Positions 1,870-50,168 of a stretch of DNA of 64,000 nt are shown here, piece after piece. The translations under genes and the position numbers were made by a program. Source of the DNA: Planctomycetaceae bacterium (lineage in GTDB: Bacteria; Planctomycetota; Phycisphaerae; Phycisphaerales; UBA1924); NCBI GenBank assembly GCA_021294835.1, contig JAJTDF010000014.1, positions 1-64,000 of the forward strand, in the 5' to 3' direction. The notes beneath the pieces are model-generated. The model searched no databases. It was not told the origin of the DNA and saw only the letters and a list, made by a program, of their open reading frames with translations. Positions within the stretch are counted from its first letter, which is position 1. Each line of letters opens with the position of its first letter.

Positions 1870-1983
1870 GCAAAGCCGCTGCAAGCAAATATTGCAAGCA
1901 TTAGCGAGTCTGGTTCATGTTCTTTGGCGCATGCTTGTTCTTTATTCGCGGCTCAATCGCTTGGTTCTGAGGGAGATTAACAG

Positions 1984-2643
1984 ATGGCATCAGTACGTTG
2001 TGCGTTACTCTCGTGTGTCACGGTCTTCTGGTTCTGCGTTGTCGCTGGCTGTTCGGTTGCTCCAGGCTTTCGTATACTTGCAGAGCCACCTTTTACAAAG
2101 GTCGAGCCACAGCACTGGACTACAGGTCTCGCATATGCGGACGCGCGGCCGTGGCATAAATGGGAGACTGTAGAGATACCGTTTGCAGTTAGTAACGTTA
2201 TCGATGCACAATTCAAAATCATGACGCGGACTGCATATGGGGTCGAGCAAGTACAGATGGATCGTTCGTCAGATACAATACGTATGCTGAATCAAAATAT
2301 TAGATTCCAAATCATGAAGGAGGATCGAACAGTTGTATTTGAAGGTCGGGATGATGATCTGAGCTTTGAAGATATGCAGCAAGACAATACATGGTACTGG
2401 AGTAATTTACGGGTATCTTCTGGTTTCATTCTTGACGATACGGCAGCAAACCGACGCGATGCTTCAGTCCTGTACATCGGAAGAAATATGGAAATGCGGA
2501 TCCGGCTTTTGCCAAAGAAAAAGTACATTGTGCGGATTAGTCGTCGGCCCGGCACGGCATTGCCTGGTTCATGGGGTGACAATATTGGTGTTCAGGTTGA
2601 GTCATTTCGCTCGATGATGCAGTTGGCTCCAGTCATATACTGA
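1984..2643 (+). CDS. Putative lipoprotein, candidate immunity partner of the upstream RHS tip
   Basis: 219-aa ORF with signal and lipobox (CVTVFWFCVVAGCS); AT-rich like the adjacent tip. Confidence 0.65.
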   Translation: MASVRCALLSCVTVFWFCVVAGCSVAPGFRILAEPPFTKVEPQHWTTGLAYADARPWHKWETVEIPFAVSNVIDAQFKIMTRTAYGVEQVQMDRSSDTIRMLNQNIRFQIMKEDRTVVFEGRDDDLSFEDMQQDNTWYWSNLRVSSGFILDDTAANRRDASVLYIGRNMEMRIRLLPKKKYIVRISRRPGTALPGSWGDNIGVQVESFRSMMQLAPVIY

Positions 2644-2713
2644 AGGAAGCAAGCCTCAATACTGCAAGTGGATAAGCGGTAGAGTGTGGACTCCGGTGGA
2701 GTGCGTGAGTCTG

Positions 2714-2850
2714 TCAGCCGTGGCTCGCCTCGAACTCTTCGGGGTTGACGCAGCTCAGGCTGCTGTTGATTCTCTGCCGTCAGCAGTACGCTTCGATGCA
2801 CTCGAAGATCGTCGCCGCTGTAGGCTGTCCGACAGTCGCGCTCGTTGCGG
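2714..2850 (-). pseudogene. IS3-family transposase (OrfB) C-terminal remnant with internal stop
   Basis: Minus-strand translation ...TVGQPTAATIFECIEAYC*RQRINSSLSCVNPEEFEASHG* resembles the conserved IS3 end (IFEYIE.FYNRQR.HSSLGY.SPEEFE). Confidence 0.7.
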
Positions 2851-3078
2851 GATGATTGGTGAACGGGATACGCACCATGGCAAACAAGGTCGCGGGGGTC
2901 GGTATCGGTTCGGTTGGTTCGGCAGGTGGGGGCGGAAATCTGAGCGTGGTGCGGGTTGGATGGCCCTTGAGGTGAGGAAGTGGGCAAGAAGGGGCGGCCG
3001 ACGCTTGCCCCGGGGCCTTGGGTGACCGACACTTGCCGACGCGGCGGGGGCCACGTCCGACTTATCAGACCCACTTCT

Positions 3079-4206
3079 ATGAGCCACGCCATGCAGAACG
3101 GAAGCACCCCCAAAGCCCCCAGCCCCCCTCCCACCGCCGGTCGCGTCGCGTTGATCACCGGCATCACCGGGCAGGACGGGTCGTACCTGGCGGAGTTCCT
3201 GCTGGCCAAGGGGTATCAGGTTCACGGGCTGATTCGGCGTGCCAGCAGCTTCAACACCGACCGCATCGACCACCTGTATCTGGACCCGCACATCAAGGCG
3301 GCGATGGCGGCCTCGGGCGGGCGGATGACGCTGCACTACGGCGACCTGTGCGACAGCAACGTGCTGAGCAAGCTGGTGAAGGCCGTGAACCCCGACGAGG
3401 TGTACAACCTCGGTGCGCAGAGCCACGTGCGGGTGAGCTTTGACATGCCGGTGTATACCGCCGAGACGGTGGCGATGGGGGCGCTGAAGCTGCTGGAGGC
3501 GGTGCGCGACCACCAGCAGACGGCGGGCAAGCAGATCCGCTACTACCAGGCGAGCTCCAGCGAGCAGTATGGGCTGGTGCAGGAGGTGCCCCAGCGCGAG
3601 AACACGCCGTTCTACCCGCGGAGCCCCTACGCCTGCGCCAAGGTGATGGCGCACTGGGCGACGGTGAACTACCGCGAGAGCTACAAGATGCACGCCTCGT
3701 GCGGCATCCTGTTCAACCACGAGAGCCCGCGCCGGGGCGAGACGTTTGTGACCCGCAAGATCACGCGGGCGGTGGGGCGGATCAAGATGGGCCTGCAGGA
3801 CAAGGTGTTCCTGGGCAATCTGGACTCCAAGCGCGACTGGGGCTTTGCCGGCGACTACGTGAAGATGATGTGGCTGATGCTGCAGCAGCCGGAGGCCGAC
3901 GACTACGTGATCGCGACCGGCAAGACGATCACGGTGCGCGAGTTCGCCGAGTTGGCCTTCAAGCACGCCGGGCTGGATTGGGACAAGCACGTGGCGTTTG
4001 ACCCGCGGTATCTGCGGCCGGCCGAGGTGGACCTGCTGCTGGGCGACCCCAGCAAGGCGATGAGCAAGCTGGGCTGGAAGCCGGAGACCAGCGTGGAGCA
4101 GTTGGCCGCGATGATGGTGGATTCGGACATGGAGCTGGCCCGTCGGGAGCGCACGCTGCGCGACGCGGGCCACACGCTGCCGGCGATCGCCGGGCACGAT
4201 CAGTGA
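3079..4206 (+). CDS. gmd: GDP-mannose 4,6-dehydratase
   Basis: [44 protein letters not shown]; full-length SDR; ATG at 3079 in frame with ORF 2980..4206. Confidence 0.95.
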
Positions 4207-4255
4207 GCGACCACCCTCACCCCCACACCCCTCCCCTTCATCGGAGCCGGCGCGC

Positions 4256-4903
4256 ATGGCCCTCCCCCGACCGCGAGCCCACTGGACGCCCCGCTACGTC
4301 CGCGACCGCATCCGTCTGGCGCTCTGGCAACGGGCCAACCCCGGTGCGCCCTGGCTGACCGCCGACGCGGTGTCGGCGTTGACCACGCTGCTGCGGCCGA
4401 CGGACGTGCTGGTGGAGTTTGGGTCGGGGCGGTCCACGGCGTGGTTCGCGCGGCGGCTGAGTGCCGGGCGGGTGGTCTCGGTGGAGCATCACGCTGAGTG
4501 GTTCGCCAAGGTGCAGGGGGACCTGCGGGCGGCGGGGCTGGGCAACGTGGTGTACCGCCAGGCGCCGCAGGATGCCTCGGGGTACGTCGCGGCGGCCGAG
4601 GCGGCGCTGGCCGAGGCCAGCCCCGACGGCCGGGCGGATGTGATCCTCAACGATGGGATCGTGCGCGACGCGGTAGCGGCATGGTCGCTGGGCAAGGTGC
4701 GGCCGGGGGGGATGATCATCGTGGACAACGTGCAGCGGTATCTGCCGTGCGAGAGCGGCTCGCCCGCGGCCATCGGGCCGAGCGCCCGGCCGATCAACGC
4801 CGACTGGCAGGCGTTCGCCGACGCGACGGTGGGTTGGCGGCAACTGTGGACGCAGAACGGGATTGAGAACACGGCGTTCTTCTTCGCACCGCCCACCGGC
4901 TGA
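4256..4903 (+). CDS. Class I SAM-dependent methyltransferase-like protein
   Basis: VLVEFGSGRSTAWFARRL SAM-binding-like motif, ADVILNDGIVRDAV. Confidence 0.65.
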   Translation: MALPRPRAHWTPRYVRDRIRLALWQRANPGAPWLTADAVSALTTLLRPTDVLVEFGSGRSTAWFARRLSAGRVVSVEHHAEWFAKVQGDLRAAGLGNVVYRQAPQDASGYVAAAEAALAEASPDGRADVILNDGIVRDAVAAWSLGKVRPGGMIIVDNVQRYLPCESGSPAAIGPSARPINADWQAFADATVGWRQLWTQNGIENTAFFFAPPTG

Positions 4904-6506: not shown

Positions 6507-9302
6507 TCAGACGCCCAACTCGTCAGCGACGGACTCCAGCGACTCGTCGCCGGTGGAGCCGGGGGGCTTCACGCCGGGCAGGGGCTTGCCGTCGGCACCG
6601 GTGAGGGGCTGGCCGTCGAGCGTTTTGACGATGACAACGGGATGGGCCTTCTGGTGGGCCTCCAGGGCGCCCAGCAGTCTGGTCTTCTCTTCTTCGGGGA
6701 GCTTCTTGAAATCACCCCGTCCCCGGCACTTGGGGAACTTGCTGCAGCCCAGCCAGGGCCCGTATTTGCCGGGCCGGAGGTACATCGGTGCCGAGCACTT
6801 GGTGCAGGGCTGGGGCGGTTCGGGCGTGAAGGGCTTGGCCGAGGGGGCGATGGCGAAGCCCTTCTTGTCAAGCCGCACGATGCCGTCGCAGGGGTTCTGC
6901 TTGTCGTTGTAGCGGGTGCAGCCCAGGAAGGCGCCGAAGCGGCCGGTGCGCTTGCTCATGGGGCTCTTGCATTTGGGACAGGCGACCTCGGTGGCCTCGA
7001 TGGCGCGGGGCACGCCGTCGCGGTCGACCGGGGCGGCGTAGTCGCACGCGGGGTAGGTGGAGCAGGAGAGGAAGCGGCCGTTCTTGCCCAGGCGGTAGAC
7101 GGTCGGGGCGCCGCACTTGGCGCAGCGGAACTCGTCGGGGGCGGGCACGGTCTCGGCCTTGGCGTGGGTGAGGGTGTTTTCAACCTGGCTGAGCCGCTGG
7201 GCGAAGGGCCCGTAGAAGCGGTGGAGCATCTGCACCCAGTCCAGATGCTCTTCCTCGATCTTGTCCAGGTCGGCTTCCATCTCGCGGGTGTAGCCGAGGT
7301 CCATGATCTGGGGGAAGGCCTCGATGAGCTTGTCGGTCACGGCCTCGCCCAGGCTGGTCGCGTAGAAGCGGCGCTCGAGCAGTTCGACGTACTTGCGGTC
7401 CTGAATGACCGAGATGATGCTGGCGTAGGTGCTGGGTCGGCCGATGCCCTCCTCTTCCAGCGACTTGATCAGGCCGGCTTCGGTGTACCGCGGGGGCGGG
7501 GAGGAGAACTTCTGGCGGGGGGCCATGCCGAAGGGGGCGACCTTCTGCTTCTCGGCCAGAGTCGGCAGGGTCTGCTCGTCGGCGCTCTGCGGCACGCCGG
7601 TGACCTTGAGGAAGCCGTCGAAGACCAGCACACGCCCGGAAGCACGGAAGGTCAGCGGGCGGGCGGGGTCTTTGCCGCCGGTGATCGAGACGGTGGTCGC
7701 GTCCCACTGGGCCGGGGTGCACTGGCAGGCGACAAAGCGCTTCCAGATCAGTTCGTAGACGCGGAGCAGGTCGGGCTTGAGGATGGAGCGAAGCCGCGAG
7801 GGCGGGTAGTTCAGGCTGGTGGGGCGGATGGCCTCGTGGGCCTCCTGGGCGTCTTTGTTGGAGGAGGTGTAGAAGTTGGGCTTGTCGGGCAGGTAGGCCG
7901 GGCCGAGGGCCTTGGGAATGTACTCGCGGACCATCTCGATCGCCTCGCGAGAGAGATGCGTCGAGTCGGTACGCATGTAGGTGATCAGCGCGACGGGGCC
8001 TTCGCCGGGGATATCTACGCCCTGGTACAACTGCTGCGCCGCGGCCATCGTCCGCTTGGCGGTGAAGCCGAGCTGCACGCTGCCGGCCTGCTGCAGGGTG
8101 CTGGTGATGAACGGCGCCGACGGGCGCGAGGTGGTGCGGCGTGTTTCAATGCCGCTGACGGCGTAGGGCGTGGAGGGGTCGATTTCGCCGGTGAGCGAGC
8201 GGACGAACCGCGCCGGGCCCTTGCCCTTGGGGTCGGGGCGGGTGGTGACACGGACGTTGTTCAGGCCGGCGGCCTGGGCGATCTGCACGGCGCGCTGGGC
8301 GAGGGCTTCGCCGGCTTTCTCAAGATCCTTCTCCGCGCCGTCGGCCGGCAGCGAGAGGTCGAACTTCTGCCCGGCGACCTCGGCCAGTTCGGCGCGGAAG
8401 CCGCCGTTCTCGGCCAGCCATGCGGTGACCTCTTTGACCGTCGGGCCGTCGCCCTTCTCGTTGCGCTGGGCGAGCAGGGACTTGAAGCCCTGGGCCATTC
8501 CCGCCGCCTGCGCGAGCTGCGCCGTGAACACGCCGTTGATGGCCCACGACTCATCGGGCACGAAGGCGCGGATCTCGCGTTCGCGTTCGACGATCAGCCG
8601 CACGGCGACGCTCTGCACGCGTCCGGCCGAGAGGCCCCGGGCGACCTTCTTCCACAGCAGCGGGGAGACCTGGTAGCCGACGATGCGGTCAACGATGCGG
8701 CGGGCCTGCTGCGCGTTGACCCGATCCATGTTGATCGGGTGCGGGTTGTTGAAGGCCCGCTTGATCTCGTCCTTGGTGATGGCGTTGAACATCACACGCT
8801 TGGCGCGGAGCGGATCCACGCCCAGTTCGCTGGCGATGTGCCAGGCGATGGCCTCGCCCTCGCGATCCGGGTCGGTGGCGAACCAGATCTCGCTGGCCCG
8901 CTTGGCCGCCTTGCGCAGGTCGCCCATCACGCGGCCCTTGTCCTCCATCACCACGTAGGTGGGCGAGAAGTCGTGCTGGAGGTCCACGCCGGGGACGGGG
9001 CTCTTGACGCCCTTGGGGTTGCGGTTGGGCAGGTCGCGTACGTGCCCGACCGAGGCCAGCACCTGATAGCCCGGGCCGAGATACTTGTTGATGGTCTTGG
9101 CCTTGGCCGGAGACTCGACGATCACCAGTTGCTTGCCCGAACCGCCGCCCGGGCCGGCGTCGGTGGCATCGGCCTCCATCACCCCGTCGCCCGCGTCAAA
9201 CGGAGCATCCGCAGCAGGGGCAGCAGCGGTGGCCGCGGCCTTCTTGCTCGAGCGGCGGGTGGAGGGGGCTTTGGTGCGGGATGTCGAAGGAGCCTTGGCC
9301 AT
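6507..9302 (-). CDS. topA: DNA topoisomerase I with C-terminal zinc ribbons
   Basis: QLVIVESPAKAKTINKYLGPGYQVLASVGHVRDLP; ATDPDREGEAIAWH; YMRTDSTHLS; CxxC zinc ribbons near the C-terminus; start MAKAPSTS at 9302. Confidence 0.96.
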   Translation of the reverse strand: MAKAPSTSRTKAPSTRRSSKKAAATAAAPAADAPFDAGDGVMEADATDAGPGGGSGKQLVIVESPAKAKTINKYLGPGYQVLASVGHVRDLPNRNPKGVKSPVPGVDLQHDFSPTYVVMEDKGRVMGDLRKAAKRASEIWFATDPDREGEAIAWHIASELGVDPLRAKRVMFNAITKDEIKRAFNNPHPINMDRVNAQQARRIVDRIVGYQVSPLLWKKVARGLSAGRVQSVAVRLIVEREREIRAFVPDESWAINGVFTAQLAQAAGMAQGFKSLLAQRNEKGDGPTVKEVTAWLAENGGFRAELAEVAGQKFDLSLPADGAEKDLEKAGEALAQRAVQIAQAAGLNNVRVTTRPDPKGKGPARFVRSLTGEIDPSTPYAVSGIETRRTTSRPSAPFITSTLQQAGSVQLGFTAKRTMAAAQQLYQGVDIPGEGPVALITYMRTDSTHLSREAIEMVREYIPKALGPAYLPDKPNFYTSSNKDAQEAHEAIRPTSLNYPPSRLRSILKPDLLRVYELIWKRFVACQCTPAQWDATTVSITGGKDPARPLTFRASGRVLVFDGFLKVTGVPQSADEQTLPTLAEKQKVAPFGMAPRQKFSSPPPRYTEAGLIKSLEEEGIGRPSTYASIISVIQDRKYVELLERRFYATSLGEAVTDKLIEAFPQIMDLGYTREMEADLDKIEEEHLDWVQMLHRFYGPFAQRLSQVENTLTHAKAETVPAPDEFRCAKCGAPTVYRLGKNGRFLSCSTYPACDYAAPVDRDGVPRAIEATEVACPKCKSPMSKRTGRFGAFLGCTRYNDKQNPCDGIVRLDKKGFAIAPSAKPFTPEPPQPCTKCSAPMYLRPGKYGPWLGCSKFPKCRGRGDFKKLPEEEKTRLLGALEAHQKAHPVVIVKTLDGQPLTGADGKPLPGVKPPGSTGDESLESVADELGV

Positions 9303-9583
9303 GGCGGACGCTTGTGCGGGGAATCCAGAGGGCCGGTTGGCCGGTGGCTGGGAGGGCGAGGGGTCAGGACGGGTCAGGACGGGGTGGGTCGGCAACTGAT
9401 ACGGTGAAAGTTTGGTATCGGATCGGTCGGCCGAACCAATATAGAGAGAAGCCAGCGGTCGGGTTCGGGTCAAGTGCTGGAATATGCGTCGAACGTGCAA
9501 TCTGAATCGGGAATGTGACCCGGCCAACCACCTCGGGGTTTCGGCCGGAGGCCGAAGACGGCTGGAAAGAAGCGAAAAGGAAA

Positions 9584-16772: not shown

Positions 16773-18335
16773 TCAGGCGTGGATGACGCGGCCTTCGGCG
16801 GCGAGGGCGGCCTCGTGGATGCTCTCGTGCATGGTGGGGTGGGCGTGCACGGTGGCGATGAGTTCCTCGGTGGTGGCCTCCAGGCGGCGGGCGAGGCTCA
16901 TCTCGGCGATCAGTTCGGTGGCCTGGTCGCCGATGATGTGGGCGCCGAGGATCTCGCCCCGGGGCAGGCCGCGGATGATCTTGACGAAGCCGTCGGTGTG
17001 GGCGGTGGCGATGGCCTTGCCCAGCGCGGTGAAGGGGAACTGGCCGACGGCGTAGTCCTTGCCCTTGACCTTGCCGTCGGCGATGAGCTTCTGCTCGGTG
17101 AGGCCGACGGAGGCGACCTGCGGGATGCAGTAGGTGCAGCCGGGGATGGTGGTGTAGTCCATCGGGTGCGGCTCGTGATGCCAGACGCCCTTGCGCCAGG
17201 CGATGCGCTCGACGCAGAGGATGGCCTCTTCAGAGGCGACGTGGGCGAGCCAGGGCGGGCCGATGACATCACCGACGGCGTAGATGCCGGGGAGGTTGGT
17301 CTTGTAGTCCACCGGCTGGTTGGTGGTCTTGCCGACGACGTAGTCGGTCTGGATGTGGCCGGTGTTGTCGAGCTTGAGGCCCAGCGCGGGGTCGAACAGG
17401 CCGTCGGTGCGGCCCTTGACGCCGACGGCGAGCAGGACGCGGTCGGCCTCGATGGTCTGCTTGCGGGACTCGTCGGCCTTGCCGTTGACGAACGGGGCGC
17501 AGGTGACCTTGACGCCGCCGGCGGTCTTCTCCACGGCGGTGGTGGTGGTGGCCGTGAGGATGGTCATGCCGTGCTTTTCGTAGATCTTCTGGAGGGCCTT
17601 GGAGACGTCGGTGTCCTCGACGGGCAGGACGCGGTCCATCATCTCGATGACGGTGACCTTGGTGCCCATGGAGTGGTAGAAGTAGGCGAACTCCATGCCG
17701 ATGGCGCCGGCGCCGATGACCACGAGGCTCTTGGGCTTCTCTTTGTTGTACATGGCCTCGCGGGCGCCCCAGATGCGGTCGCCGTCAAAGCGGGCGAAGG
17801 GCAGGTCGCGGGCGACGGAGCCGGTGGCGACGATGACGTGGTCGGCGGTGATGGTCTGGGTGGTCTTGCCGGGGGTGGCGGGGGCGGAGGTGAGTTCCTC
17901 CTTGACGGCGCACTCCTGGATCTCGACCTTGCACTTGCCGCCGTTGGCCGGGGTGGCGGCGCCGGTGATCTTGGCGTTGCCGGTGAAGAAGGTGATCTTG
18001 TTCTTCTTCATCAGGAACTCGATGCCCTTGTTGAGCTTGGAGGCGACATCGCGGCTGCGGCCGATGATGCGGTCCCAATCAAGCTCGACCGAGCCGGAGA
18101 TCTTCAGCCCCCAGAACTTCTGGGCGTCCTGCTTGCCCATCTTCTCGACCAGTTCGGCGTTGGCCAGCAGGGACTTGGAGGGGATGCAGCCCCAGTTCAG
18201 GCAGACTCCGCCGAGCTTGGCGCGCTCGACGATGGCGGTCTTGAAACCGAGCTGGGCGGCGCGGATGGCCCCGACGTATCCGGCGGGTCCGCCGCCGATG
18301 ACGATGACATCAAAGTGAGAGGGGGCGTCGGCCAT
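16773..18335 (-). CDS. lpdA: Dihydrolipoyl dehydrogenase
   Basis: FDVIVIGGGPAGYVGAIRAAQLG, GGVCLNWGCIPSKSLL, C-terminal HAHPTMHESIHEA. Confidence 0.95.
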   Translation of the reverse strand: MADAPSHFDVIVIGGGPAGYVGAIRAAQLGFKTAIVERAKLGGVCLNWGCIPSKSLLANAELVEKMGKQDAQKFWGLKISGSVELDWDRIIGRSRDVASKLNKGIEFLMKKNKITFFTGNAKITGAATPANGGKCKVEIQECAVKEELTSAPATPGKTTQTITADHVIVATGSVARDLPFARFDGDRIWGAREAMYNKEKPKSLVVIGAGAIGMEFAYFYHSMGTKVTVIEMMDRVLPVEDTDVSKALQKIYEKHGMTILTATTTTAVEKTAGGVKVTCAPFVNGKADESRKQTIEADRVLLAVGVKGRTDGLFDPALGLKLDNTGHIQTDYVVGKTTNQPVDYKTNLPGIYAVGDVIGPPWLAHVASEEAILCVERIAWRKGVWHHEPHPMDYTTIPGCTYCIPQVASVGLTEQKLIADGKVKGKDYAVGQFPFTALGKAIATAHTDGFVKIIRGLPRGEILGAHIIGDQATELIAEMSLARRLEATTEELIATVHAHPTMHESIHEAALAAEGRVIHA

Positions 18336-18622
18336 GGTGTGCGATCCTTCTGTCTGGCAGGCGTGCTGCGGGTTTGAGGGGGGCCGATGGTAGGGGAAAG
18401 GCGGGGGCGAAATGGCCAACGGGTCAGGGGGGCAGATGGTCAAATGAAGGCGCGGTGGGGGGGGGTGGGGGGCAGGCGAAAGGTGGAGGGGCGGGGGATG
18501 GAGGTTGACCGGCCTGGTCAACGAGGTCGGCACGAGTGGGCGGCACGACGGGACGGTGGGGGTGTGGGGGTGTGGGCAGGACGGTGTGCGCCGGGCTGTG
18601 TCAAAGATGGGATGGGGGTGTG

Positions 18623-37783: not shown

Positions 37784-38484
37784 CGTGCTGTTGTGCCGAG
37801 CAGCATGATCGCGCGAGTGAGGGCTCGGTGGGCTGCTGGGGGGCCGGCGTGTCGGTGGCAGAGCATCAGTCGGTGCCGCGCGCAGGGGCGATGCGGTGTG
37901 ATGGATCACCCGCAGTGCGTGGGGGTTCAGCCGAAGCGGGTCGATGGCCTTTGCCGCCTCCGCGCCTCTCCACACTCCCCTCCAAACTCCACTGCCCACC
38001 TTCCCCCCGCCCTCCCGCCCCGCCCCCCCGCTGCGGCGGGGGCTTCACTGCCCTCAGCGGGGTGGTGCCGCTGGGTCGCCCGGAGGGCGGCGTGACGCTG
38101 ATGGCGCCTGACCGGGCCGGGCCTTGGGTCCGCATCGGAATCGCTCAGCGTGTGGCAAGGGAACTGTGCTTGATTGGGGTTGCGGGTGCGGCGGCCGGAC
38201 GGCTGACGGAGCCTTGGGCAAGGGGAAGTGTCCGGCGACCTGCCCCGAAGCAGCACAAGAGCGCGGATGACGGCGTAGTGAACAGTGGATATCCATGTCG
38301 GAGCAGTGGCAAGCGGCCGACCGGTGCTGGCCACTCGGCACGGCCTTCTGGCCGGCCGTGATGGAGAGTCAGGACGTCGGCTTCTCCGGCCGTTGTCCCG
38401 GGAGAGCATCCAGATGCAACAGCAAGCCCGCCGTCGTGTGTCCGGCTCGGTGAGTCTGTGGTGTGCCGCGGTGTTGCCGGCGTG

Positions 38485-38553
38485 GGCGACGGGCTGATCA
38501 CGGGTGATGACGTCATCGCCTTCATTGCGGCGTTCGCGGCGGGGTGCCCGTCA
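38485..38553 (+). pseudogene. Orphan GC-type dockerin-like tag copy with lost stop (GDGLITGDDVIAFIAAFAAGCPS)
   Basis: Near-identical to the tag DNA at 41256-41332; stop TGA is TCA here. Confidence 0.75.
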
Positions 38554-38658
38554 GGCCGAGGTGATCTCGGCGGGCGCCCACGGCGACGGCTCAACGCGGA
38601 AGGCACGCCTGCGTGCGGGCACCCACACGCGAGATTGAACAACCAAAGGAGCAGCACC

Positions 38659-41322
38659 ATGCAACGCACGACCAGACCCTTTGGAGCGCGTCGCAGCGCA
38701 CGAGTGTCCATCGCCTCGGCGGTGGCGTTGATCGTCAGTGCGGTGCTCGGGCTTGTGTGCATGCTGGCGGCGGCGCCCGCGGCGGCCCAGTGCACGAGTT
38801 CGACGTGGCTGCCGAGTGACGGCATCCCCGGCGTCGGCGGCACGGTGTACGCGATGGTTGCGTGGGACCCCGACGGGGCCGGCCCGCTGCCGGAGAAGCT
38901 CGTGGTTGGCGGGACGTTCACCACGGCGGGGGGCGTAGCGGCGAACCGCATCGCGGTGTACAACCCCGGCACGGGCCAGTGGGCAGCGCTGGGTACAGGG
39001 ATGGACAACTCGGTGTACGCGTTGACGGCGCTGCCCAACGGCGACCTGATCGCGGGCGGTGACTTCGGCGCTGCCGGCGCGGTGTCGGCCAATCGCATCG
39101 CGCGGTGGAACGGCACGGCGTGGTCAGCGCTGGGGAGCGGGATGAACAGCGCCGTGACGGCGCTGACAACGTTGCCGAGCGGCGAACTGATCGCGGGCGG
39201 CTACTTCACGACCGCCGGGGGCGTCGCGGCGAACCGCATCGCACGATGGAACGGCACGGCGTGGTCGGCCATGGGCACGGGGATGAACAACGCCGTGGCA
39301 GCGCTGAAGGCGCTGCCGGGCGGGGACCTGATCGCCGGCGGCTACTTCACCACCGCCGGGGGCGGTGCGGCCAACCGGATCGCCCGCTGGAGCGGCGGAG
39401 TCTGGTCGGCGATGGGGTCGGGCATGAACAGCACGGTCTTTGCGCTGGCAACGCTGCCGAACGGCGATGTGGTCGCCGGCGGCAACTTCACGTCGGCCGG
39501 AGGTGCAGCCGCGGCGCGCATCGCCCGGTGGAGCGGCGGTGCCTGGTCGGCCTTCGGCACGGGCATGAACGGCCTGGTGCAGGCGCTGACGGTTCTTCCG
39601 AATGGCGACCTGATCGCGGGCGGCGCGTTCACCACGGCCGGAGGCGTCAGCGCGAACCGAATCGCCCGCTGGAACATCTACACCTCTCCGATCTGGGCCG
39701 GTCTGGGAACGGGGGTGAACGGCACGGTGTGGTCCGTGACGGGCTTGGGCAACACGGCGGTCGCGGGCGGCGAGTTCTTCATCGCCGGACCGGTCAGCGC
39801 CAGCGGCATCGCCCGCTGGGACGGGACGACCTGGCTCGGCGGCAGAATGAACGCCGATGTCAACGTCATGAAGGCCATGCCCAACGGTGACCTGATCGTG
39901 GCCGGGTTCTTCACAACCGCCGGTGGGTTGACGGTCAATCGCATCGCCCGCTGGGACGGCATCGCTTGGTCAGCGCTCGGATCGGGCATGGACACGCGGG
40001 TGCTGGCACTGACGATGTTGGGCAACGGCGACCTTGTCGCGGCCGGGTACTTCACCACGGCCGGTGGCCGCGCAGCGGCCCGAATCGCGAGGTGGAACGG
40101 CAGCGACTGGTCCGCCTTCGGCTCGGGCATGAACGACTCGGTCGAGGCGCTGACGACCCTGCCCAACGGTGATCTGATCGCCGGCGGCAACTTCACGGTG
40201 GTCGACGGCGTGCCGGCCAACTCGGTCGCTCGGTGGAACGGCACGACGTGGTCGGCGATGGGGACCGGCATGACCAGTCTGAGCCGATCGGTGTGGGCGC
40301 TGGCGGCGCTGCCCAACGGTGATGTGGTCGCGGGCGGCAGTTTCACCATCGCCGGCGGGGTGGCGGCCAGCAAGATCGCCCGCTGGAACGGAACCGCCTG
40401 GCTGCCGCTGGGTTCGGGCATCAGCGGCCAGTGGGTGGGAGACCTGCTCACCATGCCCAATGGTGACCTGATCGTGGCGGGCCGCTTCAGCAGTGCCGGT
40501 GGTGTGACGGCCAACAACATCGCCCGCTGGGACGGCACGCAGTGGCACGCGCTGGGTACGGGCACGAACGGCCCGGTGCAGGGCGTGACCCTGCTGCCCG
40601 GCGGCGACCTGATCGCCGGTGGTGAGTTCAGCACCGCCGGGGGCGTAGCGGTCAACAGCATCGCTCGCTGGAACGGGACGCAGTGGTCCGCCGTGGGTGG
40701 CGGGTTGAACTCGGACGTCATCACCGTGGCGCCGCTGCCCAACGGTGGTGTGGCGGCGGGCGGCTTCTTCACCGCGGCGGACGGGAACGTCGCTTCCTAC
40801 TTCGCCCGCTACACCGTCGACACGTCCTCCGCCTCGATCACCCAGCAGCCCGCGTCCAGCACGGTGTGCCCGGGCGGCGGCGCCTGGTTCTCGGTGACGG
40901 CGATGGGTGTCGGCCCGCTCACGTATCAGTGGCGCAAGGGCGGAGCGGGCATCAACCCCGTCACCAACCCGTCGGCCGCCACCGCGACGTTGAGCCTCTC
41001 CGGCGTTCAGTTGACCGATGCGGGCACGTACGACTGTGTGGTGAGCAACATCTGCGGCACCGTCGTCAGCACCGCGGCGACCCTGACAATCTACCAGGGC
41101 TGCTCGATCGCGGATGTCTGCGGCATCGGCGGACCCGGCGCTGTGCCGTGCGGGGATGGGCTGCTCACCGGCGATGACTTCAACGCGTTCATCGCCGCCT
41201 TCGCGGCCGATGCACCGCTGGCCGATGTGGTCGCCATCGGCGGTGTGCCGCCGGGGGACGGGCTGATCACCGGTGATGACTTCAACGCCTTCATTGCGGC
41301 GTTTGCGGCGGGCTGCCCGTGA
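38659..41322 (+). CDS. Secreted beta-propeller protein (about 14 repeats) with Ig-like domain and tandem GC-type dockerin-like tag
   Basis: Signal sequence; repeat xxVxALTxLPNGDLIAGGxFTTAGGVxANRIARWNGTxWSALGSGMN; Ig-like GPLTYQWRKGG...DAGTYDCVVSN; C-term GDGLITGDDFNAFIAAFAAGCP*. Confidence 0.88.
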   Translation: MQRTTRPFGARRSARVSIASAVALIVSAVLGLVCMLAAAPAAAQCTSSTWLPSDGIPGVGGTVYAMVAWDPDGAGPLPEKLVVGGTFTTAGGVAANRIAVYNPGTGQWAALGTGMDNSVYALTALPNGDLIAGGDFGAAGAVSANRIARWNGTAWSALGSGMNSAVTALTTLPSGELIAGGYFTTAGGVAANRIARWNGTAWSAMGTGMNNAVAALKALPGGDLIAGGYFTTAGGGAANRIARWSGGVWSAMGSGMNSTVFALATLPNGDVVAGGNFTSAGGAAAARIARWSGGAWSAFGTGMNGLVQALTVLPNGDLIAGGAFTTAGGVSANRIARWNIYTSPIWAGLGTGVNGTVWSVTGLGNTAVAGGEFFIAGPVSASGIARWDGTTWLGGRMNADVNVMKAMPNGDLIVAGFFTTAGGLTVNRIARWDGIAWSALGSGMDTRVLALTMLGNGDLVAAGYFTTAGGRAAARIARWNGSDWSAFGSGMNDSVEALTTLPNGDLIAGGNFTVVDGVPANSVARWNGTTWSAMGTGMTSLSRSVWALAALPNGDVVAGGSFTIAGGVAASKIARWNGTAWLPLGSGISGQWVGDLLTMPNGDLIVAGRFSSAGGVTANNIARWDGTQWHALGTGTNGPVQGVTLLPGGDLIAGGEFSTAGGVAVNSIARWNGTQWSAVGGGLNSDVITVAPLPNGGVAAGGFFTAADGNVASYFARYTVDTSSASITQQPASSTVCPGGGAWFSVTAMGVGPLTYQWRKGGAGINPVTNPSAATATLSLSGVQLTDAGTYDCVVSNICGTVVSTAATLTIYQGCSIADVCGIGGPGAVPCGDGLLTGDDFNAFIAAFAADAPLADVVAIGGVPPGDGLITGDDFNAFIAAFAAGCP

Positions 41323-41788: not shown

Positions 41789-41797
41789 TGGTATACT
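41789..41797 (+). promoter_or_regulatory. Extended -10 promoter (TGGTATACT), probably leaderless
   Basis: TGnTATAAT-type motif ending 5 nt before the ATG at 41803; no Shine-Dalgarno at usable spacing. Confidence 0.55.
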
Positions 41798-41802
41798 CAG
41801 GT

Positions 41803-42234
41803 ATGCCGCTGACGATCTCGGGGCGGGCGGTGTCTTCGCGCCGGCCCCTGTTTGAGGATTGGTCGATCCCGGTGACGCCCGATGACTTCGGGGGCGGGGA
41901 GGGGCTGACGCTGCGTGCGCTGATCGCGCTGGTGGTGCGGGCGGAAGTGGCGGCGTATTCGGCCCGACGCGAAGCGCGAAGGCTGGATCGGGTGCTGAGC
42001 CGCGAGGCCATTGAGCGGGGTGCAGCGCAAGGGAGCGTGCGACCGGAGGGGCGGCCGATGGCGGCGCCGCCGCCGGAGGACGTAGCGATCGCGAGCGCGT
42101 GGCAGGCGTTTGAGGATGGGCTGTACATCGTGGCGGTGGACGGGCGGGAGGTGAAGGAGTTGGACGCGCAGGTGTTTGTGCGACCGGACAGCCGGGTGGT
42201 GTTCATTCGATTGGTGTTTTTGGCGGGAGCGTGA
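41803..42234 (+). CDS. Small conserved-looking hypothetical protein, partner of the downstream DUF4132-like protein
   Basis: GLTLRALIALVVRAEVAAYSARREARRLDRVLS...AFEDGLYIVAVDGREVKELDAQVFVRPDSRVVFIRLVFLAGA*; 3 nt before the next ATG. Confidence 0.75.
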   Translation: MPLTISGRAVSSRRPLFEDWSIPVTPDDFGGGEGLTLRALIALVVRAEVAAYSARREARRLDRVLSREAIERGAAQGSVRPEGRPMAAPPPEDVAIASAWQAFEDGLYIVAVDGREVKELDAQVFVRPDSRVVFIRLVFLAGA

Positions 42235-42237
42235 GCG

Positions 42238-45200
42238 ATGACCGAACGTGATGAGATGCGCATGCGACTGGAGGGGGCTCGGGATAAGCGGTGGGCGGCG
42301 GTGCGAATGGAGCGGCTTGTCGGCGTCCCGTATGCCGCGGCGTGGCTGCGGCAGGTGACGCTGAGCGACCCGACGCGGATGAGCGGTGCTGAGCGTGCCG
42401 CGGCGATGCGTTTTTCCGTCACCGGGCTGACGGACCGTGAGCGGGCGGCGCTGTTCGGGGCGCTGTTTCCCAAGATGGTCAAGGTGGTGGAGCGGGCGTG
42501 GCAGGACATGGCGTGTGCAACGCTGGATCGTGGTCAAGGGCGGGCCTTTCGGGCACCTGGGCACGTTGCGGCGACGCGGGCGGTGCGCGAGACGTGGTTC
42601 GGGCAGATGGTGAAGGAACTGGAGGGGCACGACCCGGACGTGGAGTGGCTGGCGAGCAACGCGGGGTATCTGGGGTACTTCGGGGGGCTGGCGGCCAGTC
42701 GGCTGCTGTCGGCGGCGATCAACCTTGGCGGCGAGCTGGGCGAGGCGGTGCTGGAGACGCTGCGGGCGACGGCGAACGGGCAGCGCGATCCGGGGTCGAT
42801 GGGTCGGCATGTGATCTGCGGGTTGCTGTGGAGTGAGCGGCCGGAGGCATGGGAGGTGGTGGTGAAGTTGCTGCTGGCGGCGCAACGGGAGGAGGGGCTG
42901 CGGCAGTCGATCCTGGAGTTGGCACACACGGGGCACCCGGGGGCATTTGCGCGGGTGCTTGAGGTGGTGGACGCAGAAGATCTGGTGCGGTTTGCGGCGA
43001 CGGTGCGAGCGGTGGACGTGTGGCTGGGGCTGGGCTGGGATTCGGCATCGACGGGGGTGGTGCGGTCGACGATTCAACAGGTTCGGGGGTTGCTGGCATC
43101 GGAAGCGGCCCGGCGGGCGGCGATTGGGGGAGCGGACGCAGAGGCGGCGTACTTTGGTCTGTGGTGTGAGGCGGTCGGGGATGCGCCGGCGGCGGTGCGA
43201 CTGGCGACGGAGATGAGCGCGGAGAAGTTGCCGGCGCGGCGCTGGGTGGGTGTGACCATGCTGGGGATGATCGGCCTGCCGGAGGGGGTGCCGGCGCTGG
43301 TGCGGGCACTGAAGGATGAGGACTGGGCGGTGGTGGCGGCGGCGCTGGAGGGTCTGGCGGCGCAGCCGGTGTGGGAGTTCTGGCTTGACGATGTGGCCAA
43401 CGCTGATGACGCGGCGGTGGCGGAGGCGATGCTGGAGAGCGGCGACGCGGAAGCACGTGTGGAGAGTCTGCTCGGCCTGCTGGGTCGGATGGATAAGGCG
43501 GAGGTGAAGTTCAAGCCGCCGGTGTTTGCGTGGGGGCCGACCACGCTGAAGGCAGCGGCGGTGGGGCGGCAGTTGGTGCACTCATGCCCGGCGCGGCTGA
43601 GCGAGCGGCTGCTGGACGTGGTAGACCGGCTGGATGCTTCGACGCGGTACGTGATGGTGCTGCGGTGGCGGGTGAACGCGGCAGGGGGCAATGTGTGGCC
43701 GTTTGGGAGGGAGAAGTCGTCTGAGCCGCCGCCGCCGTTGTCACCGGCGGTTCGTCGGCTGATGATCCGGAGCCTGGCGGATGGCTCTGTGATGGTGCGG
43801 ACGGAGGCGGGTGAGCGGCTTGGTTACGAGAAACTGAGCGATGAGGAGGTGGCGCAGCATGAGGCCTTGCTGGAGCGGAAGGCGGCGGACATCCGTACGC
43901 GTGCGGTGGCGCGGCTGCTGACGGCGGATGATGCCACGGTGCTGGCGACGGCGGAGCGGCTCTTGGGGCGGGGTGGGGCGTCGGCACGCGGCGGGGTGGA
44001 GTTGCTGGGCGCGATGGTGGAGAGCAAGCGGGCGGTGAGCGCAGCGCGGGCACTGCTGGAGGGATGTGCGGGAGGCTCGGAGAGCAAGGCGAGCGCGCAG
44101 GTGGCGGCGCAGGCGGGGGCTGTGTTGCGCCCTGCGGTGGAGTGGACAGCGGCGGATGCGTTCGGGCTGGCCAAAGGGTTCAAGGCGCGGCCGTTGCCGG
44201 AGATCAAGGCCAAGGGGCCGCTGACGGATTCGGCAGCGGCCCTTGCGTGTCTGGCGTCGTTGGATGACTTGGTGGCGGCGAGGAAGACGATGCTGCTGCA
44301 GCCACCGAAGGGCGAGGGAGACGCCGAGGACGGCGTGGTGCGGGAGCCGCTGCTGTTGGGCGGGGAAGTGGGGATGGGGTTGTTTGGGCCAGGGGGGCGG
44401 GACGACGCGGCCGAGGCCGAGAAGTTCGAGCAGGTGCGGGGGCTGCTGGAGGAGTGGGAGAAGCAGCGTGGGAAGGACACGCGGGACCGGGACGGGCGGG
44501 AATTCCTGCGGGCGTGGATGATGCTCGAGCGGATGAGGGAAGCCGATCGGACGAACACGGTGACCGCGGAAGGCACGGTGTTTGGGCTGCTGAAGAAGCG
44601 GCTGAGCCGGAAGATCAAGTACCCCGACGCGGTGGGGGTGCTGGTGGCATGGCTGGTGCGCACCAGCAAGGCGGACGCACCGGGGTACTTTCTGGATGGG
44701 CTTGAGGCAGCGCTGAAGCAGGGGGACGTGGGGCGGAAGCGGGACTATGACTTTGCGCCATCGCTGAGCCAGCCGGGACTGAGCGTTCGCGGGTGGATGG
44801 CCCGAATGGACCTGTGCCGACCGGTGCCTGCAGCGCTGTGGACGCTGGAGCACCGCCGACGCCGGGAGGGGCTGGTGCGGGCAGTGTTGGCGGCGGTGGC
44901 GGCGGGGAAGGCGAAGGACCTGTCAGCGGATGATCTGGGCCCATTGCAGCCCGGCTTTGACGATGCGGAGGCGTTGTGGCGGGCGGGTGAGGTGAGCGAT
45001 GATGAGATGCTGGTGCTGCTGTGCTGGCACAGCCCGGACTGGGAGCGGCGCTACGGACGGGCGGCGGAGCACCTGCACGATGTGCTCAGACGGCGGCTCA
45101 AGCGGCGGTCAACGAAGACGGCAACAGTGAGCACCGCTGCGGAGACGCAGGCCTCAGCACGGCTGGATGGGCTTGCGGAGAGGGTCCGCCGGAAGGTGCT

Positions 45201-47343
45201 GGAGATTGAGTTTGTGCGGGGCGACCGGGTGACGGTGGCGACGCCGCTGGTGTTCTCGCTGGAGCCGTCGGGCGGGATTGATGCGGCGATCGGGGCGATG
45301 GCGGCACTGGGGGAGGAGGCACTGCAACGGAGGCAGGGCTACAAGGACTGGAGCAAGCAGGCGGCGATGACGCATGTGGTGCGCGAGTCGCGACCAGGGC
45401 CGGAGGACACGCCGGAGGCGTTTGCCAAGGCGGCAGAAGCGGCGGGGTTGAGCGACGAGCGACTGGTGGCGCTCGCGGTGTTTCAGCCGCGCTGGGCAGA
45501 GCACGCGGAAAAGGCGACGGGCTGGGTGGGTCTGGAGGATGCTGTGCTGTGGGTGCGGGCGCACACCAAGGGGCGGACGGAGATTGACACAACCGATGAC
45601 CTCGAGGAAGCGTGGGAGGGCAAGGCGGCGGAGCGGACGCCGATTTCGCCGGGCAGTTTGCGAGACGGGGCGGTGGACCGGGCGTGGTTTGAGCGCTGCT
45701 TCAAGCAGTTGGGTGGCAAGCGGTGGGAGGTGGTGTATGCGGCGGCGAAGTATGCCTCGAGCGGCTCGGGGCACACGCGGGCGCGGCTGTTCGCCGATGC
45801 CATGCTGGGTAAGGTGACAGAGAAGGAGTTGCTGCTGCGGATGAGTGCCAAGCGCAACCAGGATGCGGCGCGGGCGCTGGGTTTGGTGCCGCTGCCGGAG
45901 GGGAAGCAGCGATCAGAGGCCGTGCTGCGCCGCTATGCAGCACTTCAGGAGATGCTCAGGACCAGCCGCAAGCACGGGGGCTCTGCGCTCCAAGCCAGCG
46001 AGAAACGCGCCGTGGAGATCGGCCTTGAGAACCTCGCCTGGGCCGCGGGGTATCCCGATCCGCTGCGGCTGCAGTGGGCGATGGAGATCGAGCAGTATGG
46101 CGACCTGGCCGAGGGGCCGGTGACGGTGACAGTGGACGGCGTGCGCGTGAGTCTGGCGGTGGACGAGCAGGGCGTGCCAACGCTGACGGCCAGCAAGCCC
46201 GTCAAGGCTGGCGGGCCGGAGAAGGAACTCAAAGCAGTGCCGCCGGCGGTGAAGAAGGACAAGCGGGTGGCGGTGCTGGCGGAGCGGCTGGCCGATCTGC
46301 GGCGGCAGACCTCGCGCGTGCGTGACGGGCTGGAGGCGGCGATGTACCGCGGGGATGAGTTCTCCGGGGCGGAATTGGCGGAGTTGTTCGGGCATCCGCT
46401 GCTGCGGCCGATGCTCTCGCGGCTGGTGCTGATGGGGCGGACGAGCGCGGGTGGTGAGTTGATCGGGTATCCGGACAAGTCGGGCAAGGCCCTGCGCGGG
46501 CTCGGGGGCGAGCTGGAGCCGGTGAAAGCGGCCGACCGGCTGCGGATCGCCCACCCGCTGGACCTGCTGGCGGGCAAGCAATGGCACCAGTGGCAGGCTG
46601 AGTGCTTCCGTGCCGAGCGGGTGCAGCCGTTCAAGCAGGTGTTCCGCGAGGTGTATGTGCCGGCGGCGCCGGAGGCGCGGGGCAAGGGCGTGTCAACGCG
46701 GTACGACGGCCAGCAGGTGCGGCCGAGTCAGGCGCTGGCGCTCTTCGGCAGGCGGGGCTGGGTGGCGCGGCCCGAGGAGGGCGTGCAACGCACGTTCCAT
46801 CGTGAGGGTGTGACGGTGGCGGTGGCGTTCCAGGAGGGCTTCTACACGCCCGCCGAGGTCGATGGGCTGACGCTGGCGGGGCTGGTGTTCAGAAAGGCCG
46901 GCAGCGAGGAGCCGATGGAGGTGGCCAAGGTGCCGGCGCGGGTGTTCAGCGAAGTGATGCGCGATGTGGATCTGGTGGTGAGCGTGGCGCACCGGGGCGG
47001 GGTCGATCCGGAGGCGAGCTTCAGCACGGTGGAGATGCGGGCGGCGCTGGTGCGCGAGACGTGTGCCCTGCTGTCGCTGAGCAACGTGAGGATCGAGAGC
47101 AACCGGGCGATGATCAAGGGCACGCTGGGCGACTACGCGGTGCACCTTGGCAGCGGCATGATCACCCGCTTGCCGGGCGGGCTGGTGTGGGTGGTGCCGG
47201 TGCACAGCCAGCATCGGGGCCGGGTCTTCCTGCCGTTTGCGGATGATGATCCGACGACGGCGGAAGTGGTCAGCAAGGTGCTGCTGCTGGCGCGGGATGC
47301 GGAGATCCGCGACCCGGCGATTCTGGCGCAGTTGCGGGGGTAA
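42238..47343 (+). CDS. Giant HEAT-repeat DUF5724/DUF4132-like protein (MolR/YehI-type C-terminus)
   Basis: 1701-aa ORF; helical repeats; C-terminal ...LIGYPDKSG...HPLDLLAGKQWHQWQAECFRAERVQPFKQVFREVYVP. Confidence 0.75.
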   Translation: MTERDEMRMRLEGARDKRWAAVRMERLVGVPYAAAWLRQVTLSDPTRMSGAERAAAMRFSVTGLTDRERAALFGALFPKMVKVVERAWQDMACATLDRGQGRAFRAPGHVAATRAVRETWFGQMVKELEGHDPDVEWLASNAGYLGYFGGLAASRLLSAAINLGGELGEAVLETLRATANGQRDPGSMGRHVICGLLWSERPEAWEVVVKLLLAAQREEGLRQSILELAHTGHPGAFARVLEVVDAEDLVRFAATVRAVDVWLGLGWDSASTGVVRSTIQQVRGLLASEAARRAAIGGADAEAAYFGLWCEAVGDAPAAVRLATEMSAEKLPARRWVGVTMLGMIGLPEGVPALVRALKDEDWAVVAAALEGLAAQPVWEFWLDDVANADDAAVAEAMLESGDAEARVESLLGLLGRMDKAEVKFKPPVFAWGPTTLKAAAVGRQLVHSCPARLSERLLDVVDRLDASTRYVMVLRWRVNAAGGNVWPFGREKSSEPPPPLSPAVRRLMIRSLADGSVMVRTEAGERLGYEKLSDEEVAQHEALLERKAADIRTRAVARLLTADDATVLATAERLLGRGGASARGGVELLGAMVESKRAVSAARALLEGCAGGSESKASAQVAAQAGAVLRPAVEWTAADAFGLAKGFKARPLPEIKAKGPLTDSAAALACLASLDDLVAARKTMLLQPPKGEGDAEDGVVREPLLLGGEVGMGLFGPGGRDDAAEAEKFEQVRGLLEEWEKQRGKDTRDRDGREFLRAWMMLERMREADRTNTVTAEGTVFGLLKKRLSRKIKYPDAVGVLVAWLVRTSKADAPGYFLDGLEAALKQGDVGRKRDYDFAPSLSQPGLSVRGWMARMDLCRPVPAALWTLEHRRRREGLVRAVLAAVAAGKAKDLSADDLGPLQPGFDDAEALWRAGEVSDDEMLVLLCWHSPDWERRYGRAAEHLHDVLRRRLKRRSTKTATVSTAAETQASARLDGLAERVRRKVLEIEFVRGDRVTVATPLVFSLEPSGGIDAAIGAMAALGEEALQRRQGYKDWSKQAAMTHVVRESRPGPEDTPEAFAKAAEAAGLSDERLVALAVFQPRWAEHAEKATGWVGLEDAVLWVRAHTKGRTEIDTTDDLEEAWEGKAAERTPISPGSLRDGAVDRAWFERCFKQLGGKRWEVVYAAAKYASSGSGHTRARLFADAMLGKVTEKELLLRMSAKRNQDAARALGLVPLPEGKQRSEAVLRRYAALQEMLRTSRKHGGSALQASEKRAVEIGLENLAWAAGYPDPLRLQWAMEIEQYGDLAEGPVTVTVDGVRVSLAVDEQGVPTLTASKPVKAGGPEKELKAVPPAVKKDKRVAVLAERLADLRRQTSRVRDGLEAAMYRGDEFSGAELAELFGHPLLRPMLSRLVLMGRTSAGGELIGYPDKSGKALRGLGGELEPVKAADRLRIAHPLDLLAGKQWHQWQAECFRAERVQPFKQVFREVYVPAAPEARGKGVSTRYDGQQVRPSQALALFGRRGWVARPEEGVQRTFHREGVTVAVAFQEGFYTPAEVDGLTLAGLVFRKAGSEEPMEVAKVPARVFSEVMRDVDLVVSVAHRGGVDPEASFSTVEMRAALVRETCALLSLSNVRIESNRAMIKGTLGDYAVHLGSGMITRLPGGLVWVVPVHSQHRGRVFLPFADDDPTTAEVVSKVLLLARDAEIRDPAILAQLRG

Positions 47344-47663: not shown

Positions 47664-50168
47664 ATGAGCAATCGTGTCATCCAGATGGGTCGGGCGGCGG
47701 GAGTGGCGGCGGTGTTGTCGGCGGCGGGGAGCGTGTGGGCGATGGGGGAGCAGCCGGTGTCGGCCGGCGGGGGCGCGGCGCCGGGTGTGGCGGGTGCTGA
47801 GGGCGGACGGGTGGTGGAACGGGCGGAGGTGGCCCGTCGGATGAACCTGCTGGCGACGATGAGCAACCGGTTCATCGTGAGCACGCACTGCTATGCACCG
47901 GAGTTGACCGAAGCGCAGTTTGCAACGCTGATGGCGCGGTACATGCTGCTTCCGCCGACGATGGTGCCGGCGCCGGGGGAGATTGCGCCGCAGTTCGCGG
48001 TGGACACGACCGCGTGGGTGGGCTCGGGGAGCCAGCAGGCCAGCGGGCGGGCGCAGCGGGCGAGCCTGACGTATTCGTTTGTTCCCGACGGCACGCTGTG
48101 GGGCAACCCGAACCCGGCTCGTGTGGCGAGCCGGCTGAGGGCGGACCTGGAACTGGAGTTCGGCACGGCGGATGTCGATCGGGGCCGGGAGCTGATCCGA
48201 CAGGCGCTGGGTGCCTGGCGGCGGTACGCCGGGCTGGATTACAACGAGGTGGGCGATTCGGGCATTCAGTCCGATTTCACGCTGACTCGGCGTTCGACGG
48301 TGGGGGACATTCGCATCGGCGGGTTCAACCTGGGGGACACGGGGGTTTTGGCGTACAACTTTTTCCCCGGCTCCGGCGGGGACATGACGATCAATTCGTT
48401 CTACTGGCAGACGGACAACTCGGCCTACCGCAGCCCGGGCAGCAACTACCGGTACCTGCGGAACGTGATCGCTCACGAGCACGGGCACGGGCTCGGGCTG
48501 GAGCATCAGGTGCCGTGCAACCAGACCAAGCTGATGGAGCCGCAGCTGTCCACGTCTTTCGACGTGCTGACGGTGGACGATCGTCGCGGCGGGAACCGCA
48601 ACTATGGGGACCGATTCGCGGGGAACCAGAGCAACACGGCGGCGCGGGACTTCGGCAACCTGACGACGCCGGCGCTGCGTTCGGTGATTGCGAACGACCT
48701 TTCGCTCAACGGGCCGTGGTCGTCGACCAATCCGTCTGGGGCGGACTGGTTCCGCTTCACGATCGACACTGCGCAGACCGTGACGATCACGGCGGCGCCG
48801 ACGGGCGGGAGCTACCAGGCGGGCGGGCAGGGATCGGGGTGCACGGCGTCGACGGCCGAGCCGGTGGTGACGCTGAACGCGATCGGCGCCGGTGACATGA
48901 ACATCGAGCTGCGCAACTCGGCGGGCACGGCGATCCTCCAGACGGCGGCCTCGGCGGGCAAGGGCGTGTCGGAGGTGCTGACGGCGATAAACCTTCAGCC
49001 GGGAACGTATCTGGTGCGGGTGTTCGATGTGGATCCGATCACGACCGGCGAGACGGCCAACCAGTGGCTGCAGACGTACAACCTGACGATCCGGACGGGG
49101 ACGGCGCTGGCGTCGCCCTATGCGAATGCCGGTGTGAACAAGCGGATCAACGCGGGCGAGCGGTGCTGGTTCATGGGGAACATCAACTCGGCGCCGACGG
49201 AGTCGGGGACGACGCTGACCAGCTTCGCGTGGGACTTTGACAACGACGGCACGTTTGAGACCACGGGCGGCCAGGTGTTCCGGACGTACGTCTCCAACGG
49301 GACGTACAACGCGACGCTGCGGGTGACGGCCAACAACGGCACGACGGGAACGGACACGATCCTGGTGACGGTGGTGGGGGCGACGATGTCGCTGGATGGC
49401 GTCACGCCGGGCGTGATCCAGCCGGGGCAGACGCTGCCGATCGTGATCACCGGGACCAACCTGCGCAACGCCCAGCGGTCGCAGTTCACGATCTCGGGCA
49501 CCGGCGTGAGCCTGGTGGGGACGGCGGTGAGCGACTACTTCGGCACGCAGGTGACCGGGCTGTCACTGCAGGCGACGGCGTCGGCTCCGGTGGGCGTGCG
49601 GAACCTGACGCTGAGCAACGCCGACGGCACGGCGACGCTGACCGGTGCGTTCGAGTTGGCTGTGTCATGCCCCACGGTGACGCAGAACCCGGCCGGTCAG
49701 TCCGTGAATGCCGGCGGGTCGGCAAGCTTCACCGTGATCGCTTCCGGTGCGGGACCGCTGAGCTATCAGTGGAGCCGCGACGGCTTGCCTCTGAGCAACG
49801 ACGCCCGTGTGGGCGGGGCTGATTCTTCAACACTGACGATCAATCCGGTGAGTGAGGGTGACGCCGGCGTGTACAGCGTGACGGTGAGCAACGCCTGCGG
49901 TTCGGCCAGCAGCGGCACAGCCACCCTGGTGGTGATCCCCTCCGGACCGACGGCGTGCAGTCCGGCGGACGTTGTGGGCGTGGGCGGGCAGCCCCCGGCC
50001 GACGGCCTGCTGACCGGCGACGACTTCACGGCGTTCATCAACGCGTTCAGCTCCGGCGGCACACTGGCGGACATCGTGGGTGTCGGCGGCTTGCCCCCGG
50101 GCGGCGATGGCATCACGGGCGACGACTTCATCGCGTTCATCAACGCCTTCGCGGGCGGCTGCCCGTAA
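47664..50168 (+). CDS. Secreted matrixin-like metalloprotease with PKD-like and Ig-like domains and tandem GC-type dockerin-like tag
   Basis: NVIAHEHGHGLGLEHQ zinc site; FAWDFDNDGTFETTGG PKD-like; C-term DGLLTGDDFTAFINAFSSGG...DGITGDDFIAFINAFAGGCP*. Confidence 0.88.
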   Translation: MSNRVIQMGRAAGVAAVLSAAGSVWAMGEQPVSAGGGAAPGVAGAEGGRVVERAEVARRMNLLATMSNRFIVSTHCYAPELTEAQFATLMARYMLLPPTMVPAPGEIAPQFAVDTTAWVGSGSQQASGRAQRASLTYSFVPDGTLWGNPNPARVASRLRADLELEFGTADVDRGRELIRQALGAWRRYAGLDYNEVGDSGIQSDFTLTRRSTVGDIRIGGFNLGDTGVLAYNFFPGSGGDMTINSFYWQTDNSAYRSPGSNYRYLRNVIAHEHGHGLGLEHQVPCNQTKLMEPQLSTSFDVLTVDDRRGGNRNYGDRFAGNQSNTAARDFGNLTTPALRSVIANDLSLNGPWSSTNPSGADWFRFTIDTAQTVTITAAPTGGSYQAGGQGSGCTASTAEPVVTLNAIGAGDMNIELRNSAGTAILQTAASAGKGVSEVLTAINLQPGTYLVRVFDVDPITTGETANQWLQTYNLTIRTGTALASPYANAGVNKRINAGERCWFMGNINSAPTESGTTLTSFAWDFDNDGTFETTGGQVFRTYVSNGTYNATLRVTANNGTTGTDTILVTVVGATMSLDGVTPGVIQPGQTLPIVITGTNLRNAQRSQFTISGTGVSLVGTAVSDYFGTQVTGLSLQATASAPVGVRNLTLSNADGTATLTGAFELAVSCPTVTQNPAGQSVNAGGSASFTVIASGAGPLSYQWSRDGLPLSNDARVGGADSSTLTINPVSEGDAGVYSVTVSNACGSASSGTATLVVIPSGPTACSPADVVGVGGQPPADGLLTGDDFTAFINAFSSGGTLADIVGVGGLPPGGDGITGDDFIAFINAFAGGCP

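Follow-up and report, generated by a model that had tools for sequence, protein, structure and literature searches.

Proteins with a DUF4132 domain are giants found in many phyla, and their function is not known. In E. coli, the domain stands alone in YehI, a long protein of the MolR type that has neither DUF5724 nor DUF7737 and whose gene lies among a MoxR gene (yehL), a vWA gene (yehP), yehM and SWIM genes, with no small protein of the beta-grasp family discussed here annotated beside it. In Deinococcus radiodurans, the gene pair DR_A0165-DR_A0166 has been described as a unit no further than as a putative operon (PMC8533742, PMC9650054). This pair belongs to the DdrO DNA-damage regulon, its operator being listed at -83; DRA0166 rises with mitomycin C (MMC) only if IrrE is present (PMC8533742). 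DR_A0165, also known as SEP068184, is induced by gamma radiation and H2O2 and has been likened to MoaD-type proteins; its deletion is viable, increases resistance to H2O2 and leaves the transcript level of DR_A0166 unchanged, and the validated binder named in the main text is thioredoxin, not DR_A0166 (PMC9650054). The same study stated that DR_A0165 is restricted to Deinococcus and lacks an operator (RDRM) (PMC9650054).

A planctomycete relative of the Deinococcus pair

The window analysed here comprises 64,000 nucleotides (bases 1-64000 of contig C114 in an assembly of 3.85 Mb) with a G+C content of 69%, and holds on its forward strand a small gene (41803..42234) followed by a gene for a giant protein of 1701 aa (42238..47343), the stop of the former and the ATG of the latter being separated by 3 nt. 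An earlier note on this DNA had placed both reading frames in this way, and its position for the small gene holds, although its length of 144 aa does not, as the frame consists of 143 codons and a stop from the ATG at 41803. An alternative, longer in-frame start is present at 41752; aligned homologues start at or near 41803. The sequence TATACT (41792..41797), a possible -10 element, ends 5 nt upstream of this ATG, a placement that would fit a leaderless message from 41803, and no -35 element was found upstream of it. The small protein, which ends in FIRLVFLAGA, could be assigned to no Pfam, NCBIfam or PADLOC family, and scans of 13 small proteins against Pfam and NCBIfam returned chance matches only. 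Given its full-length conservation at up to 61% identity in other genomes, and because its own genome carries another small-giant pair, the frame represents a real gene; its nearest named relatives are from Phycisphaerales and Phycisphaeraceae in the Planctomycetota. This second pair lies on contig C18 (minus strand; giant of 1113 aa with a partial DUF5724 at 660-4001, small gene at 4021-4443). The tail of its small protein is altered, with WED at the end, and the pair is possibly a diverging paralogue.

As the earlier note had proposed, the giant is a DUF5724/DUF4132 protein, and it additionally carries DUF7737. All three Pfam domains score above the curated cut-offs of 25, 27 and 27 bits, respectively: PF18991 DUF5724 (E = 4e-162, 542 bits) in a helical region spanning 42439..46083 with matched stretches at 42439-44220 and 44950-46083, PF13569 DUF4132 (4e-40, 138 bits) at 46222..46761, and PF24879 DUF7737 (5e-32, 110 bits) at 47029..47334. 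The HEAT-like repeats that the note had also named give weak Pfam matches. The resemblance it saw to MolR/YehI is confined to the DUF4132 domain and does not extend to the rest of the protein, and its remark that no MoxR/vWA partner is nearby agrees with our scan of the neighbouring window genes, which detected none, in contrast to the yehI locus.

In D. radiodurans, a tblastn search placed the small family on the 412-kb replicon, in the order trxC, hypothetical protein, DUF4132 protein, which matches the published order DR_A0164-DR_A0165-DR_A0166. The D. radiodurans small protein shares 42% identity with that of the window over 97 aa, and its giant 48% over 718 aa at the C-terminal end; the giant has the same three domains, DUF5724, DUF4132 and DUF7737, and the gap between the two genes is 2 nt. 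Judged from these sequence comparisons, the window pair is orthologous to DR_A0165-DR_A0166. The two differ in that the D. radiodurans small protein ends in GG and that of the window in GA.

Conserved pairing and the DUF7737 domain

Related loci were fetched with the small protein alone from a collection of one genome per species, using a type-A profile and requiring the AFEDG motif; because the scan demanded this motif, we left the near-invariant AFEDG block of the small protein out of the evidence. Type-B small proteins are known here from Planctomycetota only. The 80 loci obtained span more than ten phyla, including Planctomycetota, Verrucomicrobiota, Chloroflexota, Cyanobacteria and Armatimonadota, and extend to Actinomycetota, Bacteroidota, Bacillota, Deinococcota and Gammaproteobacteria. 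The giant adjoins the small gene in 74 of them, and as the small protein alone was used to collect the loci, this adjacency is far above chance; of the remaining six loci, one lacks a giant and five are cut off by the contig end shortly beyond the small gene. In Planctomycetota, the small-protein profile found the gene in 20 of 393 genomes, PF13569 being present in 38, and in 19 of the 20 the small gene adjoins a DUF4132 gene of the same orientation. In addition, the tree distances of 59 small/giant pairs correlate with r = 0.83, the largest value among 999 shuffles being 0.23, and part of this correlation stems from shared species history. The conserved pairing of the two genes is thus well supported; the pairing guessed at in the earlier note is strongly borne out, and the small family is not scattered independently of DUF4132 proteins. 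Beyond these two, the collected loci have no recurrent gene family in common.

With respect to the individual exceptions, the locus without a giant (L088, Verrucomicrobia LW23, small gene at 9001-9435) has none in the 9 kb downstream, and the planctomycete exception (L137 in genome G208, small gene at 1810-2421) is a weaker match with no giant detected nearby. A further match, in genome G053, was discarded since no separate, matching reading frame contains it.

The small gene is usually located upstream of the giant, with estimated gaps often of 0-30 nt, and this nearly invariable proximity is what would be expected if the small protein were a folding or assembly helper, or merely an upstream coupled gene that sets translation of the giant, with no role in the final activity. 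We regard this as unlikely, given that the order is reversed with adjacency retained in two loci (L105 and L077) and that deletion of DR_A0165 has a phenotype with no change in the DR_A0166 transcript (PMC9650054). The patchy distribution of the pair, with occasional plasmid or second copies, could likewise point to a defence or toxin-antitoxin system, and defence was among the roles suggested earlier. This reading is weak and in our view very unlikely: PADLOC gave no match, the genes around the pair are ordinary ones, whether in the window, in Deinococcus or on plasmids, and the viability of the DR_A0165 deletion argues that D. radiodurans does not need the protein as an antitoxin (PMC9650054).

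The presence of DUF7737 tracks the small gene. The 393 Planctomycetota genomes contain 56 DUF4132 loci, 24 with and 32 without DUF7737, and the small gene lies beside 21 of the former versus none of the latter (Fisher p = 1.5e-12); of the three DUF7737 loci without it, one (G184) begins at a contig end and in two (G359 and G456) none was detected. Partners of the small protein are of two types, one of about 1650 aa with DUF5724 and the other mostly of about 870 aa without it, and by profile they have only the DUF4132-DUF7737 module in common. As the sole part common to both, this C-terminal end (46138..47340 in the window) is the likeliest place for the small protein to dock. Three loci with DUF4132 and no DUF7737 (L142, L146 and L148) lie beside MoxR-type AAA_5 and/or VWA_CoxE genes and represent a separate, yeh-like system in Planctomycetota; DUF5682 is also present at L142. 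Thus, a DUF7737-bearing subset can now be set apart within the DUF4132 giants, which carries a partner with a predicted ubiquitin fold instead of MoxR/vWA genes. At one locus (L020, genome G043), a second DUF4132-DUF7737-like reading frame (17121-18551) just upstream of a type-B pair suggests a tandem duplication or its remnant.

Predicted folds and the C-terminal tail

The AlphaFold2 model of the window small protein, made from an alignment of nine sequences, has a mean pLDDT of 81, with strands at residues 2-9, 15-23, 108-112, 115-117 and 131-136, a main helix at 37-62 and insert helices at 67-75 and 92-104, that is, a bb-alpha-(helical insert)-bbb topology in which the insert follows the main helix and precedes strand 3. 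Ubiquitin-fold proteins make up most of the 50 best Foldseek matches in the PDB, among them ubiquitin, ISG15, Urm1, MoaD, the parkin Ubl and a PI3K RBD, and each match is weak by itself (E about 0.1). The model therefore gives moderate support to the guess of the earlier note, a beta-grasp (here ubiquitin/MoaD-like) fold around a helical insert. For the last 401 residues of the giant, the AlphaFold2 model has a pLDDT of 90.8, and Foldseek found no convincing match for them in the PDB (best E 0.008, TM-scores 0.15 and 0.21); PDB sequence searches with the profiles of the small protein and of the C-terminal module returned nothing significant. Confidence is very low in one stretch of this module only, model residues 357-368. 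This stretch overlaps with the invariant FLPF-D segment and looks as a loop ordered by a partner might.

Members of the small family resemble MoaD, ThiS, Urm1 and ubiquitin in predicted fold and frequently in ending with GG; they differ by their helical insert, the lack of a sequence match, the absence of an adjacent E1 gene and their independence of MoaE. The C-termini of type-A members end exactly in GG in 43 of 80 cases and in GA in another 14, those of Bacteroidota and Bacillota end in AGRMW, AGSYW and similar, and the most constant part of the tail is L-x-G; the type-B members listed all end in VGG or AGG. A ubiquitin-type diglycine is hence frequent in the family but not required. Obligatory conjugation is unlikely, since GG is absent from the window protein, which does not have the C-terminal Gly-Gly of the MoaD/ThiS sulfur carriers, and from nearly half of its type-A relatives.

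It is nonetheless conceivable that the small protein acts as a genuine sulfur carrier or ubiquitin-like modifier. Its C-terminal glycine would then be activated by an E1/ThiF enzyme and either linked to a target or converted to a thiocarboxylate, and the giant would be the receiver, ligase or target. The predicted fold and the frequent glycine tails are compatible with this, as are the E1-like ThiF-family enzymes present in 22 of 22 genomes checked. We consider it improbable, however, in light of the GA tail in the window, the WED tail of the C18 paralogue and the bulky endings in Bacteroidota and Bacillota, and because no E1/ThiF gene recurs beside the pair in the collected loci and Pfam detects no E1 domain in the giant. 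A more specific version, namely a Ubl family with a dedicated DUF4132-DUF7737 receiver and tail-dependent activation or transfer under DNA damage, appears quite a long shot; if true, it would constitute a DNA-damage ubiquitin-like signalling route apart from the known bacterial ubiquitin-like operons.

The structural likeness to MoaD (by Foldseek and in PMC9650054) and the MolR name could also suggest that the small protein is the MoaD of a molybdopterin synthase and that the giant takes part in molybdenum cofactor synthesis, and moaA-, mobA- and modE-like genes, recognised by eye, lie upstream of the pair in five related Bacteroidota loci. This weak reading is, to our mind, highly improbable. 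No MoaE was found in the 99%-complete, single-contig genome G012 or in the 89%-complete genome of the window, both of which hold the small gene; the best ThiS/MoaD sequence match had an E-value of 0.17, in one of 13 small proteins; and moeA and moeB, which belong to molybdate metabolism, were unaffected by DdrO depletion (PMC8533742). The five Bacteroidota loci (L102, L103, L109, L114 and L121) have in common an upstream block that also includes xdhC-like genes and is likely lineage synteny.

Hub1-type ubiquitin-like proteins are not conjugated; their ubiquitin fold docks non-covalently and their tail is not a diglycine. By analogy only, the small protein, if its modelled MoaD/ubiquitin-like shape is correct, may work as a docking ubiquitin-like protein.

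Regulation in Deinococcus and a proposed stress module

In four Deinococcus species (L160, L161, L165 and L166), the pair is preceded by a DdrO-type operator. The sequence TTATGCTATTTACATAA occurs exactly in three of them, 80-93 bases upstream, and as a symmetric variant in D. ficus, whereas no DdrO box was found in the window. These data contradict two statements made about DR_A0165 (PMC9650054): it is not confined to Deinococcus, because the small family spans many phyla, and it does not lack an operator, because TTATGCTATTTACATAA or its variant precedes the pair in four Deinococcus species. In other phyla, SOS-type boxes showed no clear enrichment upstream of the small genes, with exact GAAC-N4-GTTC matches in 2 of 79 small-gene upstream regions versus 2 of 496 control genes, and a claim of such enrichment was dropped as these matches are too few.

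Of the roles suggested in the earlier note, stress is favoured by the Deinococcus orthologue, with its place in the DdrO regulon and its conserved operator. Here we propose that the two genes form a conserved stress module in which the small protein, as a ubiquitin-like subunit bound non-covalently, regulates a giant scaffold; this is the likeliest reading, and we give it an even chance of being correct. As a dedicated subunit, the small protein would dock on the C-terminal DUF4132-DUF7737 module of the giant, with its LxG tail forming part of the contact, and once docked it would control how active the DUF5724 HEAT-type solenoid is, a region that might scaffold substrates. DNA damage induces the pair in Deinococcus, where the small protein behaves like a brake on the survival of oxidative stress; we infer that a stress role could reach the organism of the window as well.

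The DdrO regulation of DRA0166 and the stress induction of SEP068184, both published but so far unlinked, can in this way be brought together as one testable module present in more than ten phyla, and a pair of unexplained genes becomes open to study as a single stress-response unit. For the large and unexplained DUF4132 family, the present analysis adds a partner, a division into two systems and, for the DUF7737-bearing subset, a tie to the DNA-damage regulon of Deinococcus.

Apart from the pair itself, both genes that flank it in the window (38458-41322 and 47664-50168, encoding beta-propeller and matrixin proteins) end in a tandemly repeated GDGLLTGDDFNAFIAAFA-type motif, which is probably a shared sorting or dockerin-like tail.
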